A DNA stretch of 64,000 bases from Neorhizobium galegae (GTDB lineage: Bacteria > Pseudomonadota > Alphaproteobacteria > Rhizobiales > Rhizobiaceae), in the NCBI RefSeq assembly GCF_021391675.1, contig NZ_CP090095.1:1741501-1805500 (forward strand). The letters are read 5' to 3'. Position numbers and translations under genes: made by a program. Below, one piece after another: positions 9,733-17,954 of this stretch; positions within the stretch are counted from its first letter, which is position 1, and each line of letters starts with the position of its first letter. The notes below the pieces were generated by a model. The model did no database searches. It was not told the DNA's origin and was given only the letters and a program-made list of their open reading frames with translations.

Positions 9733-10069
9733 GGCGTTCCGCCGGCCAGGTCGAGGCTTCCTTTGTTCCGTGGCAACGATCCGGCGGGCTCTTGCACGAC
9801 CTCGGACAAGGATGTCACCGATACCGGATCAGACTATCCTGATGCGTTCGATGAACTGCGGCGGTGGAAGTGTCCACCCTCGCCAATATCGCTGTCATAA
9901 CCCATATTCTGTCCCTTCTGCCGGAGCGGGCACGGACGGTGCAAACCTGTGCAAATGCTGGGGCGCGTCCTTTTCACAAATGAAATAAATCTGTCACAAA
10001 ACTGTAATGAGCAACAGATAGAGGGTAGCCGACGCCCAAGCGTCAATCCGAATTCCAAGGGAGAAATCC
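9733..10069. other. upstream region of the pst operon
   Basis: The 337-bp gap between the flavodoxin stop and pstS contains the Pho box described separately, about 60 bases before pstS. No phoR gene or other coding region is present. The remainder shows no clear element. Confidence 0.6.
9991..10008 (+). promoter_or_regulatory. Pho box (PhoB operator) of the pst operon
   Basis: The sequence CTGTCAC AAAA CTGTAAT has two CTGTNAY heptamers spaced by four A residues, giving the 11-base periodicity of PhoB direct-repeat sites. It lies about 62 bases upstream of the pstS ATG, right for a -35-replacing activator site. PhoB is encoded in the same operon, so the operon is probably autoregulated. Confidence 0.85.
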
Positions 10070-11104
10070 ATGAAGAAGTATCTAGGAAGCTGCGCTGTAG
10101 CCGCAATTCTGCTGGCCACCGCAGGCGTTGCAACGGCTCGCGATCAGGTTCAGGTTGCCGGTTCCTCCACCGTTCTTCCCTATGCGAAGATCGTTGCGGA
10201 AGCTTTCGGCGAAGCCTTCCCGAAATTCAAGACCCCGATCGTCGAGTCGGGCGGCACCGGCGCTGGCCTCAAGGAATTCTGCAAGGGCGTCGGCGAAGCC
10301 ACGATCGACATTGCAAATGCTTCCCGCCCGATCAACAAGTCTGAAGCCGAAGCCTGCAAGGCCGCCGGCGTCAGCGACGTCCAGGAAATCCGCATCGGCT
10401 ACGACGGTATCGTTTTCGCGACTGCCAGCAGCAACGGTGACATGAAGCTCGAGCCGAAGGACATCTACAAGGCTCTCGCTGCTCAGGTCGTTGTTGACGG
10501 CAAGCTCGTCGCCAACCCCTACAAGAACTGGTCGGAGATCAATCCGACGCTTCCGAAGGGCCCGATCGCCGCCTACATCCCGGGCGAAAAGCACGGCACC
10601 CGCGAAGTTTTCGAACTGAACGTTCTTGCCGCAGGCTGCAAGGATTCCGGCGCAACCGACGTCATCGCCAAGGAAATCGCTGAGAAGGCTGCCCAGGCCA
10701 AGGCTTGCGTTGCTGTTCGCAAGGACGGCGTTGCCGTGGACATCGACGGCGACTACACCGAGACGCTCGCTCGTATCGCTGCCAACAAGACCGGCGTCGG
10801 CGTATTCGGCCTCGCTTTCTACGAAAACAACGCCGACAAGCTGAAGGTCGCCACCATGCGCGGCATCAAGCCGACCGCGGCCACGATCGCTGACGGCACC
10901 TATCCGGTTTCCCGTCCGCTGTTCTTCTACGTCAAGAAGGCTCACCTGGGCGTCGTCCCGGGCCTCAAGGAATACGTCGAGTTCTTCCTCTCCGACGACA
11001 TGATCGGCCCTGACTCGCCGCTCATCGAGTACGGTCTGGTTGCCGCTCCGGACGCGCAGCGCGAACAGGCCCGCAAGGACTTTACCGCTGGCAAGTCCAT
11101 GTAA
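10070..11104 (+). CDS. pstS: PstS, periplasmic phosphate-binding protein
   Basis: A 344-residue substrate-binding protein that captures inorganic phosphate for the PstCAB transporter. The signal peptide ends at ATARD (about residue 23). The phosphate-binding segments are present: VAGSSTVLPYAK near residues 28-39, SGGTGAG near 64-70, and SRPINKSEAEAC near 84-95. It begins behind AAGGGAGA, about 60 bases after a Pho box, and is followed by a strong hairpin before pstC, consistent with extra PstS relative to the membrane subunits. Confidence 0.95.
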   Translation: MKKYLGSCAVAAILLATAGVATARDQVQVAGSSTVLPYAKIVAEAFGEAFPKFKTPIVESGGTGAGLKEFCKGVGEATIDIANASRPINKSEAEACKAAGVSDVQEIRIGYDGIVFATASSNGDMKLEPKDIYKALAAQVVVDGKLVANPYKNWSEINPTLPKGPIAAYIPGEKHGTREVFELNVLAAGCKDSGATDVIAKEIAEKAAQAKACVAVRKDGVAVDIDGDYTETLARIAANKTGVGVFGLAFYENNADKLKVATMRGIKPTAATIADGTYPVSRPLFFYVKKAHLGVVPGLKEYVEFFLSDDMIGPDSPLIEYGLVAAPDAQREQARKDFTAGKSM

Positions 11105-11137: not shown

Positions 11138-11285
11138 TCTCTCCGGCCGCAGGCTTTTGCCTCGGTGGGGGATCGTCGTTCTTGCGGCGATGGTGTTGCG
11201 CGAGGCGCGACGGCGATGCGATCGGTTCCGATGACCGGAGCTGGGCGGTGATGGGTTGCCGCCGAAGGCGGTACGCCGGGGGATT

Positions 11286-12773
11286 ATGATGAACACATCA
11301 CTAATATTGTTGATTTTGGCGATAATCGGCATAGCCGGTTACGTCGCCGGTGCCCGGTATGCAATGGCACTGGTCGGAGGAATTTCCTCCAAACTTCATT
11401 CGCGGCCTGGATATTACGGTTCTTTTGTCGCCGTCTGGGCGATCTTGCCGGCCGTCGTCATTCTTTTTGTCTGGCTGGTCGCCAGCCCCATGTATATCAG
11501 CTCCTCGGTGCGCGGTGCGTTTCCCGAAGAGGTGAAAACCCAATCGCAGGCCGAGCAGGGCCTGAGCTACGGCATGATCACCTCGATTGCCCGCGGCATG
11601 AATGCGCTGACCGGCGACGAGATCGCCCGCATCGAGAATAGTCCGGTGGAGCTTCGTGCAGCGCTTGGCGCCAAGGGCGTTCCGCTTGCGGGTGATCCGC
11701 AGCCCTTCATGGTCAAGGCGGCTGCCGAACTGAACAGGATGACCTTCGTCAGCCGTATCCTGATGACGATCGTCGTTCTGGGGGTTTCCATCGGCGGCGC
11801 CCTCTTCGCCTATCGCCAGATCGCGCCGCGCTTCCGCGCCCGCAACCGGGTGGAAAAAGTGGTTCTCGGCAGCCTCGTCGTCGCTTCTTCGATCGCTATT
11901 CTGACCACGGTCGGCATCGTCGCATCGATGCTGACCGAAGCTACTCACTTCTTCACCGCCATTCCCGCCTGGGAATTCTTCTTCGGCACGGTATGGGATC
12001 CGCGTTTTGCGGCTGCGGGCTCGGGTGGCTCCGAAGGTCAGTTCGGCCTCATTCCGCTGCTGCTCGGCACGCTCTATATCGGTTTCGTCGCGATGCTCTT
12101 CGCGGTTCCGATCGGCCTCTTTTCGGCAATCTACATGTCGGAATACGCCTCGCCGAAAGTCCGCGCGGTTGCCAAGCCGCTGCTCGAAGTGCTTGCCGGC
12201 ATTCCGACCATCGTCTACGGCTTCTTCGCATTGACGACGGTCGGTCCGTTCCTTCGCGACATTTCTTCGCAGCTGAACGGCCTGGTCACCGGCGACTACG
12301 CCAACTTCATCCAGGCACAGAGCGTTCTGACGGCCGGTTTCGTCATGGGCATCATGCTGATCCCCTACGTCTCCTCGCTGTCGGACGACATCATCACCGC
12401 AGTGCCGCGTGCCCTGCGTGACGGCTCGCTCGGTCTCGGCGCCACCCGGTCGGAAACCATCAAGAAGGTCGTCCTGCCGGCCGCTCTGCCGGGCATCGTC
12501 GGCGCGCTCCTGATGACCGCATCGCGCGCCGTCGGCGAAACCATGATCGTCGTGCTTGCGGCCGGTGTCGCCGCCCGCCTGCAGATCAATCCGTTCGAGC
12601 CGATGACGACCGTGACCGTCAAGATCGTCAACCAGCTGACGGGTGACCTCGAGTTCACCTCGCCGCAGACCCTGGTTGCCTTCGCGCTGGGCATCACGCT
12701 GTTCGCCATCACGCTTTGCCTCAACATCTACGCGCTCTATATCGTGCGCAAATACCGGGAGCAGTACGAATGA
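11286..12773 (+). CDS. pstC: PstC, phosphate ABC transporter permease
   Basis: A 495-residue inner-membrane permease. It has an extended N-terminal part (helices near residues 5-25 and 40-65, then a periplasmic stretch) and the BPD_transp_1 core in the C-terminal half, with the EAA loop LGLGATRSETIKKVVLPAAL that contacts PstB. This long form is common in alphaproteobacteria. The start ATG at 11286 follows GGGGGA; an upstream TTG at 11256 is less likely. Its stop overlaps the pstA start as ATGA. Confidence 0.93.
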   Translation: MMNTSLILLILAIIGIAGYVAGARYAMALVGGISSKLHSRPGYYGSFVAVWAILPAVVILFVWLVASPMYISSSVRGAFPEEVKTQSQAEQGLSYGMITSIARGMNALTGDEIARIENSPVELRAALGAKGVPLAGDPQPFMVKAAAELNRMTFVSRILMTIVVLGVSIGGALFAYRQIAPRFRARNRVEKVVLGSLVVASSIAILTTVGIVASMLTEATHFFTAIPAWEFFFGTVWDPRFAAAGSGGSEGQFGLIPLLLGTLYIGFVAMLFAVPIGLFSAIYMSEYASPKVRAVAKPLLEVLAGIPTIVYGFFALTTVGPFLRDISSQLNGLVTGDYANFIQAQSVLTAGFVMGIMLIPYVSSLSDDIITAVPRALRDGSLGLGATRSETIKKVVLPAALPGIVGALLMTASRAVGETMIVVLAAGVAARLQINPFEPMTTVTVKIVNQLTGDLEFTSPQTLVAFALGITLFAITLCLNIYALYIVRKYREQYE

Positions 12774-14089
12774 CCGATGTGGTTTCTCCCGCCGCCGGCA
12801 TCCCCAAGGCCAAGGCCGTCCGTCGCGATATCGGCATCAAGGGCCGTTACGCCGCCGAGCGTCGCTTCCGTGCCTATGGCATCGCCGCGCTTTCCTTCGG
12901 CATCATCTTCCTGATGCTTCTGCTGTGGTCGGTGGTCTCCAAGGGATACACCGCCTTCCAGCAGACCATGATCACCATGCCGGTCGAGTTTTCGCAGCAG
13001 ATCATCGACCCGCAGAACGAACGGACCACCAACCCGCAGAAGCTGATGACGGCGAACTATCCGGTCGTCGCCCGCAACGCTCTCGCCAAGCTGCTCAACG
13101 TCAGCGTGGACGACCGTGTCGCAGCCCGCGCAGTCAGCCAGATGCTGTCGGATGGCGTGCGTGTTCAGCTGCGTGACCTGGTCGTCGCCAATCCGGCGAT
13201 CATCGGCACGACGCAGACGGTCACCCTGCTTGCTTCCGGCGATATCGACTCGGCCTACAAGGGTCAGATCGACCTCACCGTCAGCCAGGAGAACCGCAAG
13301 ATCAACGACCAGCAGCTCGGCTGGATGACGCAGCTCTCCGACAGCGGCGCGCTCGCCAAGCATTTCAACAGCGGCATTTTCGTCAACGGCGCATCGAGCC
13401 GTCCGGAAGCGGCCGGCGTCGGCGTCGCGCTCATCGGCTCGTTCTACATGATGCTGATCGTGCTCGTCTTGGCTCTGCCGATCGGCGTCGCGGCCTCGAT
13501 CTATCTCGAGGAGTTCGCGCCGAAGAACAAGTTCACCGACCTGATCGAGGTGAATATCAACAACCTCGCGGCCGTTCCCTCGATCGTCTACGGTCTTCTC
13601 GGTCTGGCGGTCTTCGTCAACTTCATGGGCCTGCCCCGTTCCGCCTCCTTGGTCGGTGGTCTGGTGCTCACCCTCATGACGCTGCCGACGATCATCATCG
13701 CGACCCGCGCGGCACTGAAGGCCGTGCCGCCGTCGATCCGCGCGGCCGCCCTCGGGCTCGGCGCATCGAAGATGCAGACGATCTTCCACCATGTCCTGCC
13801 GCTTGCCATGCCGGGCATCCTGACCGGCACCATCATCGGCCTGGCCCACGCACTCGGCGAAACCGCGCCGCTGCTCCTGATCGGCATGGTGGCCTTCGTC
13901 GCCAACTATCCGACCACGCCGCTCGACCCGTCGACGGCGCTGCCGGTCCAGATCTACATGTGGGCGAACGAAGCGGAGCGCGCGTTCGTCGAGCGTACCT
14001 CGGGAGCAATCATCATCCTGCTCCTGTTCCTCATCCTAATGAATGTTGGCGCAATTCTCTTGCGGCGTCGCTTCGAGCGGCGCTGGTAG
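12770..14089 (+). CDS. pstA: PstA, phosphate ABC transporter permease
   Basis: A 439-residue inner-membrane permease that pairs with PstC. It has a long N-terminal extension with one helix (about residues 45-65) and a periplasmic loop carrying an N-terminal DUF3333-like region, as in rhizobial PstA, and then the transport core with the EAA loop [20 protein letters not shown]. The ATG overlaps the pstC stop (ATGA), indicating translational coupling; a longer upstream in-frame start within pstC is not supported. Confidence 0.93.
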
Positions 14090-14102
14090 AAGGAGTATGA
14101 CA

Positions 14103-14918
14103 ATGAATATGATGTCAGAATCGGCAGTAGAAAAGGCGCTGGACCAAAAGATGAGCGATGCTTCCCACAAGATGATCGGCAAGGACGTTTCGGTTTATTA
14201 CGGTGAAAAGCGTGCGCTTTTCGACGTGAACCTCAACGTCCGCGAAAACACTGTGACGGCTCTCATCGGTCCTTCCGGCTGCGGCAAGTCCACCTTCCTG
14301 CGCTGCCTCAACCGCATGAACGACACGATCGAGAATTGCCGCGTCACCGGCAAGATCACCCTCGACGCGGACGATATCTACGACAATAACATCGACGTCG
14401 TGGAACTTCGCGCCCGCGTCGGCATGGTGTTCCAGAAGCCGAACCCGTTCCCGAAGACCATCTACGAGAACATTTCCTACGGTCCGCGCATCCACGGTCT
14501 TTCCAAGAACAAGGCCGACATGGATCAGATCGTCGAGGCGAGCCTGCAGCGCGCCGGTCTCTGGGGTGAAGTCAAGGATCGCCTGCACGAATCCGGCACC
14601 GGCCTCTCCGGCGGTCAGCAGCAGCGCCTGTGCATCGCCCGCGCGATCGCCGTGTCGCCGGAAGTCATCCTCATGGACGAACCCTGCTCGGCTCTCGACC
14701 CGATCGCGACCGCCAAGGTCGAGGAACTCATCCATGAACTGCGTGCCAACTACACGATCGTGATCGTGACGCACTCGATGCAGCAGGCTGCCCGCGTCTC
14801 GCAGCGCACCGCCATGTTCCATCTCGGCCAGCTCGTCGAGGAGAACGACACCGACAAGATGTTCACCAATCCCGACGACCAGCGCACCCAGGATTACATC
14901 ATGGGCCGTTTCGGCTGA
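14103..14918 (+). CDS. pstB: PstB, phosphate ABC transporter ATPase
   Basis: A 271-residue ATPase that powers PstCA. Walker A is GPSGCGKST at about residues 56-64, the signature motif is LSGGQQQRL, and Walker B is [13 protein letters not shown]. The PstB-specific segment [19 protein letters not shown] is present. The ATG at 14103, six bases after AGAAGGAG, is preferred over the ATG at 14097, which is too close to it. It is followed by phoU after 45 bases. Confidence 0.96.
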
Positions 14919-14963
14919 TCCAGCCGACTGTGCCGCCTGAAAATCAATTTTGAGGACTAGAAG

Positions 14964-15677
14964 ATGGCATCGACCCATATCCTGTCGGCTTATGACGACG
15001 AACTGAAATACCTGAGCCGCCGCATCTCCGAAATGGGCGGCCTCGCCGAGCAGATGTGCTCGGACGCCGTGCGGGCGTTGGTCAATTCCGACGCAGCACT
15101 CGCGCAGAAGGTCATCTCCGACGACGTGATCCTCGATCACGCCGAGCGCGAGATCGGCGACAAGGCGATCATCACGATCGCCCGCCGCCAGCCGGTTGCA
15201 GCCGACCTTCGCGAGATCGTCGGTTCGCTGCGCATCGCCTCCGATCTGGAGCGCGTCGGCGACCTTGGCAAGAACACCGCCAAGCGCGTCATCGCGGTTC
15301 AGGGCACCGGCGTTCCGCGCAAGCTCGCCCGCGGTCTGGAGCATCTCTCCGATCTTGCCCTCGTGCAGCTCAAGGACGTCCTCGACGTCTATTCGACGCG
15401 TTCGGCGGAGAAGGCCGAGGCGATCCGCAGCCGCGACGAGGAAATCGACGCGATGTACACCTCGCTGTTCCGCGAACTCCTCACCTACATGATGGAGGAT
15501 CCGCGCAACATCACCACCTGCACGCATCTTCTGTTCTGCGCCAAGAACATCGAGCGTATCGGCGACCACGCCACCAACATCGCCGAGACCATCTACTACA
15601 TGACGACAGGCGCCCAGCCGGAAGGCGATCGTCCGAAGGACGATTCGTCGAACACGCTCGGCGCGATCACCGAATAG
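14964..15677 (+). CDS. phoU: PhoU, phosphate-specific transport accessory protein
   Basis: A 237-residue all-helical cytosolic protein made of two three-helix PhoU repeats, each with the metal-binding E/DxxxD-type pattern: DLERVGDLGKNTAKR in the first and KNIERIGDHATNIAE in the second. PhoU couples the PstB transporter to PhoR/PhoB and holds Pho signalling off when phosphate is sufficient. The start lies behind GAGGAC. Position between pstB and phoB is the standard rhizobial order. Confidence 0.95.
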   Translation: MASTHILSAYDDELKYLSRRISEMGGLAEQMCSDAVRALVNSDAALAQKVISDDVILDHAEREIGDKAIITIARRQPVAADLREIVGSLRIASDLERVGDLGKNTAKRVIAVQGTGVPRKLARGLEHLSDLALVQLKDVLDVYSTRSAEKAEAIRSRDEEIDAMYTSLFRELLTYMMEDPRNITTCTHLLFCAKNIERIGDHATNIAETIYYMTTGAQPEGDRPKDDSSNTLGAITE

Positions 15678-15707: not shown

Positions 15708-16391
15708 ATGCTGCCAAAAATCGCTGTCGTAGAAGACGAAGAAGCGCTGAGCGTGCTTCTTCGCTACAATCTGGAAGCCGAGGGTTATGAGGTCGATACC
15801 GTTTTGCGGGGCGACGAAGCCGAAATTCGGCTTCAGGAGCGGGTACCGGACCTTCTGATCCTGGACTGGATGCTGCCCGGCGTTTCCGGCATCGAACTCT
15901 GCCGCCGGCTGCGCATGCGCCCGGAAACGGAGCGCCTGCCGATCATCATGCTGACGGCCCGTGGCGAGGAGAGCGAACGTGTTCGCGGCCTCGCCACCGG
16001 TGCCGACGACTATGTGGTAAAACCCTTCTCGACGCCGGAACTGATGGCGCGCGTCAAGGCCATGCTGCGCCGGGCCCGTCCCGAAGTGCTCTCCAGCGTG
16101 CTCCGCTGCGGGGATATCGAACTCGATCGGGAAACCCATCGCGTTCACCGCAAGAGCCGCGAAGTGCGTCTTGGCCCGACCGAATTCCGCCTGCTCGAAT
16201 TCCTGATGGCGGCGCCGGGGCGGGTCTTCTCCCGCTCGCAGCTTCTGGACGGCGTCTGGGGTCACGACATCTATGTCGACGAGCGTACGGTCGATGTCCA
16301 TGTGGGAAGACTTCGCAAGGCACTCAACTTCTCCAACATGCAGGATGTCATCCGCACCGTCCGCGGTGCCGGATACTCCATGGAAACATAG
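15708..16391 (+). CDS. phoB: PhoB, phosphate regulon response regulator
   Basis: A 227-residue OmpR-family regulator. The receiver has acidic pocket residues E9 and D10, the phospho-acceptor D53 in LLILDWMLPG, T83 in MLTARGEE, and K105 in VVKPFS. The C-terminal winged helix contains RLGPTEFRLLEFLM, DERTVDVHVGRLRKAL and VIRTVRGAGYSM. It activates genes with Pho boxes, such as the one before pstS. The cognate kinase gene phoR is not in this window. A closely related but receiver-degenerate copy follows after 14 bases. Confidence 0.95.
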   Translation: MLPKIAVVEDEEALSVLLRYNLEAEGYEVDTVLRGDEAEIRLQERVPDLLILDWMLPGVSGIELCRRLRMRPETERLPIIMLTARGEESERVRGLATGADDYVVKPFSTPELMARVKAMLRRARPEVLSSVLRCGDIELDRETHRVHRKSREVRLGPTEFRLLEFLMAAPGRVFSRSQLLDGVWGHDIYVDERTVDVHVGRLRKALNFSNMQDVIRTVRGAGYSMET

Positions 16392-16405: not shown

Positions 16406-17092
16406 ATGAGCGCGCGGGTCCTGTTGGTCGACGACGACGAGTCGTTCCGTCTGATATTGCAGAAAGCCCTCGTGGCCGACAGCTTCGTCGTGTCGATGCT
16501 GGCAAGTGGAGCCGAGATCTCGAATCGCTTGAAAGCCGTTCCGCCGGATATCCTGGTCATGAGTTCGGACCTTCCGGGCGTGCAAGGTCTCGAGGTCTGC
16601 CGCGAGGTGCGTCTCGATCCCGTCCTGTCGCGCCTTCCGATCATCCTCCTCGTGCCGTCGGGTGGCGAAGGCCTTCACCTTACCGCGCTGGCGGCGGGCG
16701 CCGACGATTGCCTCATGAAGCCATTTTCCCCGGTCGAGCTCGTCGTCCGTGTGAAGAACCTGCTCAGGCGCGTCAATCCCGCCCTCCTGGACCATATGCT
16801 CAAGGTCGGCGATCTCACGCTCGACCGGGAAGCCCATCGGGTTCACCGGCAGAAACGGGAGGTCAAGCTCGGGCCGAAGGAATTCAAGCTTCTTGAATTC
16901 CTGATGCGGACACCGGGCAAGGTCTATTCCCGCTCGGAGCTCAAGGCATCCCTGTGGGGCGACGACACGACCGTCGACGAGCGCGCGATCGATGTCCATA
17001 TCGGCCGGCTTCGCAAAGTCATCAGCCTTGGCAAGTCCGACAACGTGATCCGGACCGTACGTGGCACCGGATACGCTTTGGGCGATTTCTGA
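16406..17092 (+). CDS. PhoB-like response regulator with a degenerate receiver
   Basis: A 228-residue tandem relative of PhoB that aligns with it without gaps over the receiver. The DNA-binding half is strongly conserved (KLGPKEFKLLEFLM, VDERAIDVHIGRLRK, DNVIRTVRGTGYAL), so it probably recognises Pho-box-like DNA. In the receiver the phospho-acceptor D53 is replaced by S53 (VMSSDLPG) and the switch Thr83 by V83 (LLVPSGGE), while D9, D10 and K105 remain. It therefore cannot be phosphorylated in the normal way; an Asp at position 55 is two residues away. It probably ends the pst operon and could compete with or support PhoB at Pho promoters. No experimental counterpart is known to me. Confidence 0.88.
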   Translation: MSARVLLVDDDESFRLILQKALVADSFVVSMLASGAEISNRLKAVPPDILVMSSDLPGVQGLEVCREVRLDPVLSRLPIILLVPSGGEGLHLTALAAGADDCLMKPFSPVELVVRVKNLLRRVNPALLDHMLKVGDLTLDREAHRVHRQKREVKLGPKEFKLLEFLMRTPGKVYSRSELKASLWGDDTTVDERAIDVHIGRLRKVISLGKSDNVIRTVRGTGYALGDF

Positions 17093-17264: not shown

Positions 17265-17945
17265 CTAAAAATGATCCTCTGGACGATCTTCGTCGTAGGG
17301 AAATATGAGTTTACCCGAGCTGGCCAATTCATCCCGTACGTTGGAAAATGTCTTCTCCAATTTCTCGACAAGCATCTCACTCAGTCTGAGATGACGCTCG
17401 TCTGCTTCTGAATGCTTATATAGCTTGAGATCCTTTACTGAAAGTATGGCCCAATCGTCTGGCCCACCCCTCGTTGTGGCGTACGCATTTTTTAAGAGCG
17501 TCAGCGACGCCAAAGTCAAAGCAGGGACGATGTCGGCTTTGTTGTTCCAAATATGTATTGCTGTATGTCGCCCGTCGAGATTTAGGCCGAGATTTGGTTC
17601 AAATCTAACTCGAAACATTGATGCCGGGCTTTCGTACGTCGCGGCAGAAAACTTCATAGGCTTATAAAGCTGCAAGGCTTTCCAGCTTGCGAGGCGTTTT
17701 ATTCCCTTGATGGCTGACGTTCGCTCCGCTTCCAGCTTTATGTTTTGCATTGAAGCGATGATTTCGTGAAGCGGCTTTCCTTGTGCGACAAGCTCATTGG
17801 CGCCTTGGCGGAATGAGGTGTGAAAGTCTCTTCCGCCTTTCTTCGAAGGGGAAAGCCGTTTTTTTATAGATGTGCGTTGAGGGCGCTCCCTTAAGAACAA
17901 CATGCCCATGAACGCAGAAAAACCGAATGTCGTTATAGGTGTCAT
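17265..17945 (-). CDS. hypothetical protein of an accessory region
   Basis: A 226-residue protein I do not recognise. The start ATG follows AGGAG by eight bases; an in-frame GTG at 17954 overlaps that site. It has a short hydrophobic start (FGFSAFMGMLFL), a basic segment rich in Lys and Arg, and no clear catalytic motif. Its base composition is visibly AT-richer, and its codon use less GC-ended, than that of its neighbours, which suggests recent acquisition. It lies between the pst operon and nrdJ with nothing related beside it. Confidence 0.55.
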   Translation of the reverse strand: MTPITTFGFSAFMGMLFLRERPQRTSIKKRLSPSKKGGRDFHTSFRQGANELVAQGKPLHEIIASMQNIKLEAERTSAIKGIKRLASWKALQLYKPMKFSAATYESPASMFRVRFEPNLGLNLDGRHTAIHIWNNKADIVPALTLASLTLLKNAYATTRGGPDDWAILSVKDLKLYKHSEADERHLRLSEMLVEKLEKTFSNVRDELASSGKLIFPYDEDRPEDHF

Positions 17946-17954
17946 CCAGGACAC

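Follow-up and report, generated by a model that had tools for sequence, protein, structure and literature searches.

A PhoB paralogue with a pseudo-receiver domain follows phoB in a mosaic phosphate operon of Neorhizobium galegae

Response regulators of the OmpR family that lack the phosphorylated aspartate are a described class of aspartate-less or pseudo-receiver proteins, with ChxR, HP1043, RitR and NblR as examples (excerpts of PMC4395418, PMC12632262 and PMC3960148). How such proteins are switched is called a mystery in the excerpted part of PMC12632262, which offers two models: the pseudo-receiver pairs with a canonical regulator, or it is active constitutively, with control exerted on its expression. 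CmrR and CmrT of C. difficile interacted in pull-downs and showed no interaction in two-hybrid tests (PMC12548384, in excerpt), and BldM and WhiI of Streptomyces form heterodimers, as cited in the excerpt of PMC12632262. Within the Rhizobiaceae, arsenite-oxidase islands carry a second pst/pho set (PhoB1/pst1) beside the aio genes, and there is work on PhoB1 and PhoB2 in A. tumefaciens 5A (Kang 2012 and others, as cited in the excerpted parts of PMC3834237 and PMC7533571). Here we describe a gene that brings a pseudo-receiver into the operon of its own canonical paralogue, phoB. Our search of open-licence papers found no description of it.

We analysed a 64,000-nucleotide stretch of the Neorhizobium galegae genome (NZ_CP090095.1, positions 1,741,501 to 1,805,500; hereafter the window). 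The reading-frame list and its translations place directly after phoB a gene for a 228-residue regulator of the OmpR/PhoB type, which we call the twin (Table 1). Aligned with the PhoB of the window, the twin is 48% identical and free of gaps up to the last residues, in agreement with an earlier note on this DNA that had called it a gap-free PhoB homologue. The alignment also bore out S53 and V83 in place of the D53 and T83 of PhoB, and further revealed C102 in place of Y102. Of the three active-site residues that the note listed as kept, D10 and K105 are the same in both proteins; position 9 is Asp in the twin and Glu in PhoB, a swap within the acidic pair. Identity amounts to 51 of 122 residues over positions 1-122 and 58 of 99 over positions 127-225. 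The note's description of the DNA-binding half as nearly PhoB-like suits the recognition helix (12 of 17 identical) and the wing (9 of 10) and is somewhat strong for the whole half.

Table 1. Features of the phosphate operon in the window
Feature	Position	Strand	Basis
Pho box ahead of pstS; its type is common to twin-carrying pst operons	9991..10008	+	only match of at least 12/14 in the window; same box in 8 aligned twin-operon promoters
Inverted repeat GACGC-N4-GCGTC between Pho box and pstS, common to twin-type promoters	10031..10044	+	alignment, pattern matches
pstS; twin-type leader, native-type body, joint at about 10121-10136	10070..11104	+	alignment, comparisons
pstC, pstA, pstB, phoU; native-type core	11256..15677	+	94-95% identical in DNA to the operons linked to phoR in G002 and G015
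phoB, canonical; native-operon homology stops at 16385	15708..16391	+	TIGR02154, 343.7 bits, over cut-off
Twin, the pseudo-receiver paralogue of PhoB (S53, V83, C102), with a winged helix like that of PhoB	16406..17092	+	alignment, profiles, tree, residue counts

Profile matches to Response_reg (E = 4.1e-19) and Trans_reg_C (E = 8.1e-26) indicate that the fold assignment is not due to chance. The receiver domain was found (PF00072, 69.2 bits) with S53 at the site of the phosphorylated aspartate, which makes the twin an aspartate-less receiver protein. The PhoB equivalog profile TIGR02154 gave 231.9 bits against a cut-off of 296.2, which the neighbouring phoB passes, and the pair D53 and T83, replaced in the twin, is present in all 61 PhoBs compared. 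At the base-contact positions listed in the excerpt of PMC3973317, the twin has kept R201, R219 and V197, and T194 is replaced by Ala. The predicted structure has a mean pLDDT of 87.5 and is good within each domain, with a pTM of 0.62 that makes the placement of the domains relative to each other unsure; we drew no active or inactive state from it, full-length matches among the 50 listed having an rmsd of 6.5-18 A. C102 invites the thought of a thiol or arsenite sensor, a role that we do not claim. C65, the other conserved cysteine of the twins, is also found in 61 of the 61 PhoBs.

A sequencing error that hides an Asp at codon 53, which the earlier note had named as a threat to its claim, is very unlikely because three other Neorhizobium assemblies have AGT at this codon too, Ser53 recurs in Rhizobium sp. 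LC145 as AGC, and two base changes are needed to turn AGT into an Asp codon.

The note had suggested looking for a second gene in this position elsewhere, and we found a distinct clade of twins. A protein search returned 57 further full-length clusters (P0002-P0058, 51-98% identity) ahead of the canonical PhoBs among the best 120 of 708 matches. On the tree, these clusters formed one clade with P0064 and P0067, separated from the PhoBs with 100/100 support; P0064, P0067 and the fragment P0059 are left out of the 58 twins and 61 PhoBs counted here, and a second tree omitted pSinA_wHTH, P0058 and P0015. Of the 58 twins, the window's included, 21 have N at position 53, 15 have S, 10 have G, 8 have D, 3 have E and one has A. 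T83 is retained in 10 of the 58, and C102 is present in 56. The whole set of D/E9, D10, D53, T83 and K105 survives in five twins (P0029, P0034, P0036, P0037 and P0038), four of which carry Ensifer or Sinorhizobium names; these members had escaped the earlier note. When the tree was built without the active-site columns, it required at least 3 changes from D to another residue and at least 10 changes at residue 53 overall. The simplest reading of these sequences would be that a PhoB duplicate started with a working acceptor and then lost it. The deeper branches of the twin tree have weak support, so the tree does not fix the exact order of the losses. An ancestry as a PhoB duplicate inside one type of pst operon, with the Asp set still working in some Ensifer/Sinorhizobium and later lost, is borne out in part by these data.

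The twin is rare and, in the genus, family and order draws of genomes, confined to the Rhizobiaceae. It was called in 8 of the 57 genus genomes, where matches fall on either side of a gap between E <= 5e-104 and E >= 4e-94. At E <= 1e-95, a threshold that may miss divergent members, it was found in 4 of 394 genomes of an even family draw and in 2 of 397 genomes of the order draw, both of these within the family. At 15 of 15 twin loci examined (the window, G062, G077, G079, G068, G010, G026, G133, G179, NT-26, NT-25, two S. americanum plasmids and two E. adhaerens plasmids), the twin lies on the same strand directly after phoB; these loci, and the P values below, are not independent, since Neorhizobium supplies four of the genus genomes, NT-25 is near-identical to NT-26, and two loci each come from E. 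adhaerens and S. americanum.

Conservation among the twins falls on particular surfaces. Unchanged in 58 of 58 are L95, G98, D100, E111, R115, R121 and R122. We take L95, D100, E111, R115 and R122 to belong to the dimer face. The alpha4-beta5-alpha5 face is the dimerisation surface of OmpR/PhoB regulators (excerpt of PMC12632262). In E. coli PhoB, bases are contacted by R201, R219, T194 and V197, and changes at W184, G185, V190 and D192 abolish activation (PMC3973317, in excerpt). W184, G185, R201, T217 and R219 are likewise invariant in the 58 twins, and V190 is always V or I. T194 is replaced in 57 of the 58, mostly by Ala (A or V in 56), and near the activation loop L180 is replaced in 57, D181 in 58 and Y189 in 58. 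These four replacements mean that the DNA targets or the RNA polymerase contact may differ from those of PhoB.

The two halves of the protein have diverged at different rates. Pairwise identities among the twins average 52% for the receiver and 78% for the DNA-binding half, compared with 80% and 74% among the PhoBs. Between the window and LC145, the corresponding values are 71% and 93% for the twin and 95% and 99% for PhoB. Judged from these identities, evolution of the twin has been much faster in its receiver than in its DNA-binding half. All computed omega values were below 0.4, and those of the twin were 0.03-0.14 in two Neorhizobium pairs; most dS values are near or above 1, which makes omega rough in those pairs. 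Going by conservation, the twins look like proteins that gave up phosphorylation and kept dimerisation and DNA binding.

In the window, the genes form one predicted operon that runs from the Pho box through pstS, pstC, pstA, pstB, phoU and phoB to the twin. The gap of 14 bp before the twin was confirmed; phoB and twin share a strand, and a scan of the window gave no Pho box of the twin's own, so the two are predicted to be cotranscribed. The Pho box reported earlier upstream of pstS (CTGTCACAAAACTGTAAT) was recovered, and five shuffled windows averaged 0.2 matches of at least 12/14. Eight aligned twin operons, including that of the window, have in common the Pho box CTGTCACAAA(A/T)CTGT(A/T)AT, a repeat GACG(C/T)-N4-GCGTC and a related pstS leader. 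This twin-type promoter differs from the phoR-linked promoters of G002, LC145 and G019. In the window the repeat reads GACGC-CCAA-GCGTC; across twin-type promoters the loop varies and the stem is constant, apart from one change of the G-U type in R. rhizolycopersici, and the repeat is missing from phoR-linked promoters. It is a candidate operator or RNA hairpin.

The promoter pattern, at up to 2 mismatches, was present in 7 of 8 twin genomes of the genus versus 3 of 49 others (P = 3e-6), and in 3 of 4 twin genomes of the family draw versus 1 of 390 others (P = 2e-6). Because the genomes are related and twin operons served to define the pattern, these P values are optimistic, and the presence of the pattern in twin operons, as opposed to its absence elsewhere, is partly by construction. 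Promoter and twin are not inseparable, because twin-type (type-B) promoters without a twin occur on the NT-26 chromosome and in G029, G063 and G067. In G026, a twin is present and the twin-type promoter is absent. The NT-26 chromosome carries a pst-phoB operon with the twin-type promoter, phnEEDC behind it, no twin, and phoR far away; the plasmid-borne near-copy of this operon does have a twin. A search for a relic of the twin after the chromosomal phoB of NT-26 gave no credible match (best E = 1.0).

The operon of the window has been assembled from two sources and lies away from phoR. In G002 and G015, close relatives without a twin in which the neighbouring ribonucleotide reductase is 98% identical, phoR precedes pstSCAB-phoU-phoB. 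The operon of the window matches this native operon at 94-95% identity from 10121-10136, in the pstS leader, to 16385, at the end of phoB; upstream of this segment the sequence is of the twin type, and downstream lies the twin. The genome of the window has one PhoR over the cut-off (G000:C1:644487), 1.1 Mb from the operon. Six bases after this phoR, the sequence resumes at the last ~52 bases of phoB, a stub (L158 9519-9570, G000:C1). No pst match was found in G002 or G015 at the site of the window operon. Behind the twin, a 229-residue reading frame on the opposite strand (17265-17954) has no Pfam match, and this stretch is missing at the site in G002 and G015. By these comparisons the operon is a mosaic, with promoter, pstS leader and twin of the twin type and a native pstSCAB-phoU-phoB core. 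The plain reading is that a twin-type operon at a new site would have taken up the native core in place of its own; the native site would have been left empty, and promoter, leader and twin would be the remains of the twin-type operon. The earlier note had overlooked this relocation.

In each of the 8 twin genomes checked, phoR lies away from the twin operon and is absent from the stretches read around it: it is 1.1 Mb off in G000 and on other contigs in the remaining seven (G062, G077, G079, G068, G026, G133 and G179). In 7 of 7 hand-chosen twin-less genomes, the distance from phoR to phoB is about 7 kb or less. In G010, a phoR-linked operon is accompanied by a separate twin operon.

A subset of twins, also missed earlier, sits in arsenite-oxidase islands. 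Genes for aio or arsK/arsR occur within the stretch read at 8 of the 15 loci; a small reference set of aio and ars genes had no match at 6 of 15, namely the four Neorhizobium-type loci (the window's included), G026 and G133. The genome of the window has no AioA over the cut-off, and we do not class its locus as an arsenic island. At the G179 locus there is a weak arsR match and an aioX-like frame in just two short pieces after the twin (L175 11251-12096), and an intact AioA gene lies on another contig. AioA was found in 2 of 8 twin genomes of the genus versus 0 of 49 others (P = 0.018). In the family draw, AioA occurs in 44 of 394 genomes, and the twin in 1 of these 44 versus 3 of the 350 without (P = 0.38). 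We rejected the arsenic link as a general rule, as this draw shows no enrichment; the link is limited to a subset of islands. NT-26 (G009) has three canonical phoB genes besides the twin, two on its 322-kb plasmid and one on the chromosome; phoB copy counts leave out G133 and G179. In the arsenic island of pSinA, a gene for a very divergent PhoB-like regulator adjoins phoU (L114 4432-5094). We did not accept it as a twin, as it has a very long branch and falls outside the twin clade.

At the level of sequence, then, the twin has lost the acceptor and the Thr-Tyr switch pair, has kept the residues for the dimer face, base contacts and activation, lies in a Pho-box operon and is under purifying selection. 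This supports the earlier description of a receiver without phospho-acceptor encoded after phoB in such an operon, and agrees with its view of a Pho-box-binding regulator to the extent that the predicted parts for Pho-box binding and PhoB-like dimerisation are kept under selection. We infer that the twin would dimerise, bind DNA and pair with PhoB. The reading that we prefer, to which we give about an even chance, is that it acts as a phosphorylation-independent pseudo-receiver partner of PhoB whose dose is set by the Pho promoter. At low phosphate, PhoR would phosphorylate PhoB, and PhoB~P would switch on the Pho-box promoter of pstSCAB-phoU-phoB-twin. The twin would build up together with PhoB, pair with PhoB, with itself or with both by way of the conserved alpha4-beta5-alpha5 face, and bind Pho-box-like sites. 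The signal would then be the amount of twin and not its phosphorylation state, and part of the Pho output would depend on dose. This reading is supported by the 100/100 clade, the position at 15 of 15 loci, the invariant dimer and DNA residues, the identity and omega of the two halves, the promoter association and the interaction precedent in C. difficile.

The same retained DNA contacts and single promoter, from which twin and PhoB would be co-induced, could also make the twin a brake. It might occupy Pho boxes or form heterodimers with PhoB~P that are poor at recruiting sigma-70, giving delayed negative feedback on the Pho regulon. The consistently altered surface beside the activation loop (L180 to K/R, D181 and Y189 lost) fits such a brake; W184 and G185, the same in every twin, and V190, always V or I, are activation positions in the excerpt of PMC3973317 and argue against it, and we consider it unlikely. 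The replacement of T194 bears on another alternative, in which a PhoB-independent homodimer with altered recognition controls targets of its own, such as arsenic or phosphonate genes. Such a separate regulon gains from the aio or ars genes that adjoin the twin at 8 loci, but R201, R219 and T217 are invariant, the window is among the 6 loci without a reference aio/ars gene, and AioA is not enriched in the family draw; it strikes us as improbable.

That the twin is a decaying, functionless duplicate is very improbable. Its rarity in the three draws, the rapid divergence of its receiver and the drift of its active-site residues speak for decay. Against this, no genome match classed as a twin in the genus and family draws has an internal stop, the low omega values and the 93% identity of the DNA-binding half to LC145 stand, GC3 resembles that of phoB (0.785 and 0.731), and none of the four Neorhizobium-type genomes in which the mosaic operon was found lacks the twin.

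Returning to a partner of PhoB, we tentatively suggest a wider account. A PhoB duplicate, in a type of phosphate operon that occurs partly in arsenic islands, would be undergoing stepwise conversion into a partner that needs no phosphorylation, with D53 T83 (Ensifer) as the start, E or N as intermediates and S or G as the outcome. On uptake of this operon into the Neorhizobium chromosome, promoter, pstS leader and twin alone would have been kept round the native core, and promoter and twin would possibly act as a single regulatory unit, lending memory or persistence to the phosphate response.

BldM and WhiI are proteins of the NarL/FixJ type. As cited in the excerpt of PMC12632262, they resemble the proposed twin in that an atypical regulator works as a heterodimer with another regulator, and differ in being encoded by separate genes and acting as a coincidence detector. 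ChxR, HP1043, RitR and NblR have, like the twin, an OmpR/PhoB-type architecture without the phosphorylated aspartate and, in the excerpted literature, are expected to act without phosphorylation. Unlike them, the twin sits after its canonical paralogue in the latter's operon, keeps the DNA contacts of that paralogue, and belongs to a clade that still has Asp-bearing members. As with twin operons in such islands, the PhoB1/pst1 system of Rhizobiaceae is an additional pst/pho set next to aio genes (excerpts of PMC3834237 and PMC7533571). The PhoB of the pSinA island groups with canonical PhoBs on our tree, whereas the twin is a further gene after phoB and occurs in other islands, those of NT-25, NT-26, Ensifer adhaerens, S. 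americanum and LC145.

By analogy of arrangement, CmrR/CmrT is the closest described system, with a canonical and a pseudo-receiver regulator of the OmpR family in one operon (PMC12548384, in excerpt). That excerpt judges CmrR and CmrT unlikely to be duplicates, whereas phoB and twin are clear paralogues, and the kinase gene phoR lies outside their operon. The statement in the earlier note that no counterpart was described does not hold for the class, given the aspartate-less regulators (PMC4395418 and PMC12632262, in excerpt) and the CmrR/CmrT and BldM/WhiI precedents. The pseudo-receiver class is known, and the twin variant appears new. Here, a housekeeping phosphate operon has been put together from two sources and parted from its kinase gene. 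Both models in the excerpt of PMC12632262 fit the twin. Within its clade, natural variants of a single gene, always at the same position, range from an intact to a lost phosphorylation site. This series adjoins a canonical parent and a well-studied binding site, which makes pseudo-receiver switching directly testable.
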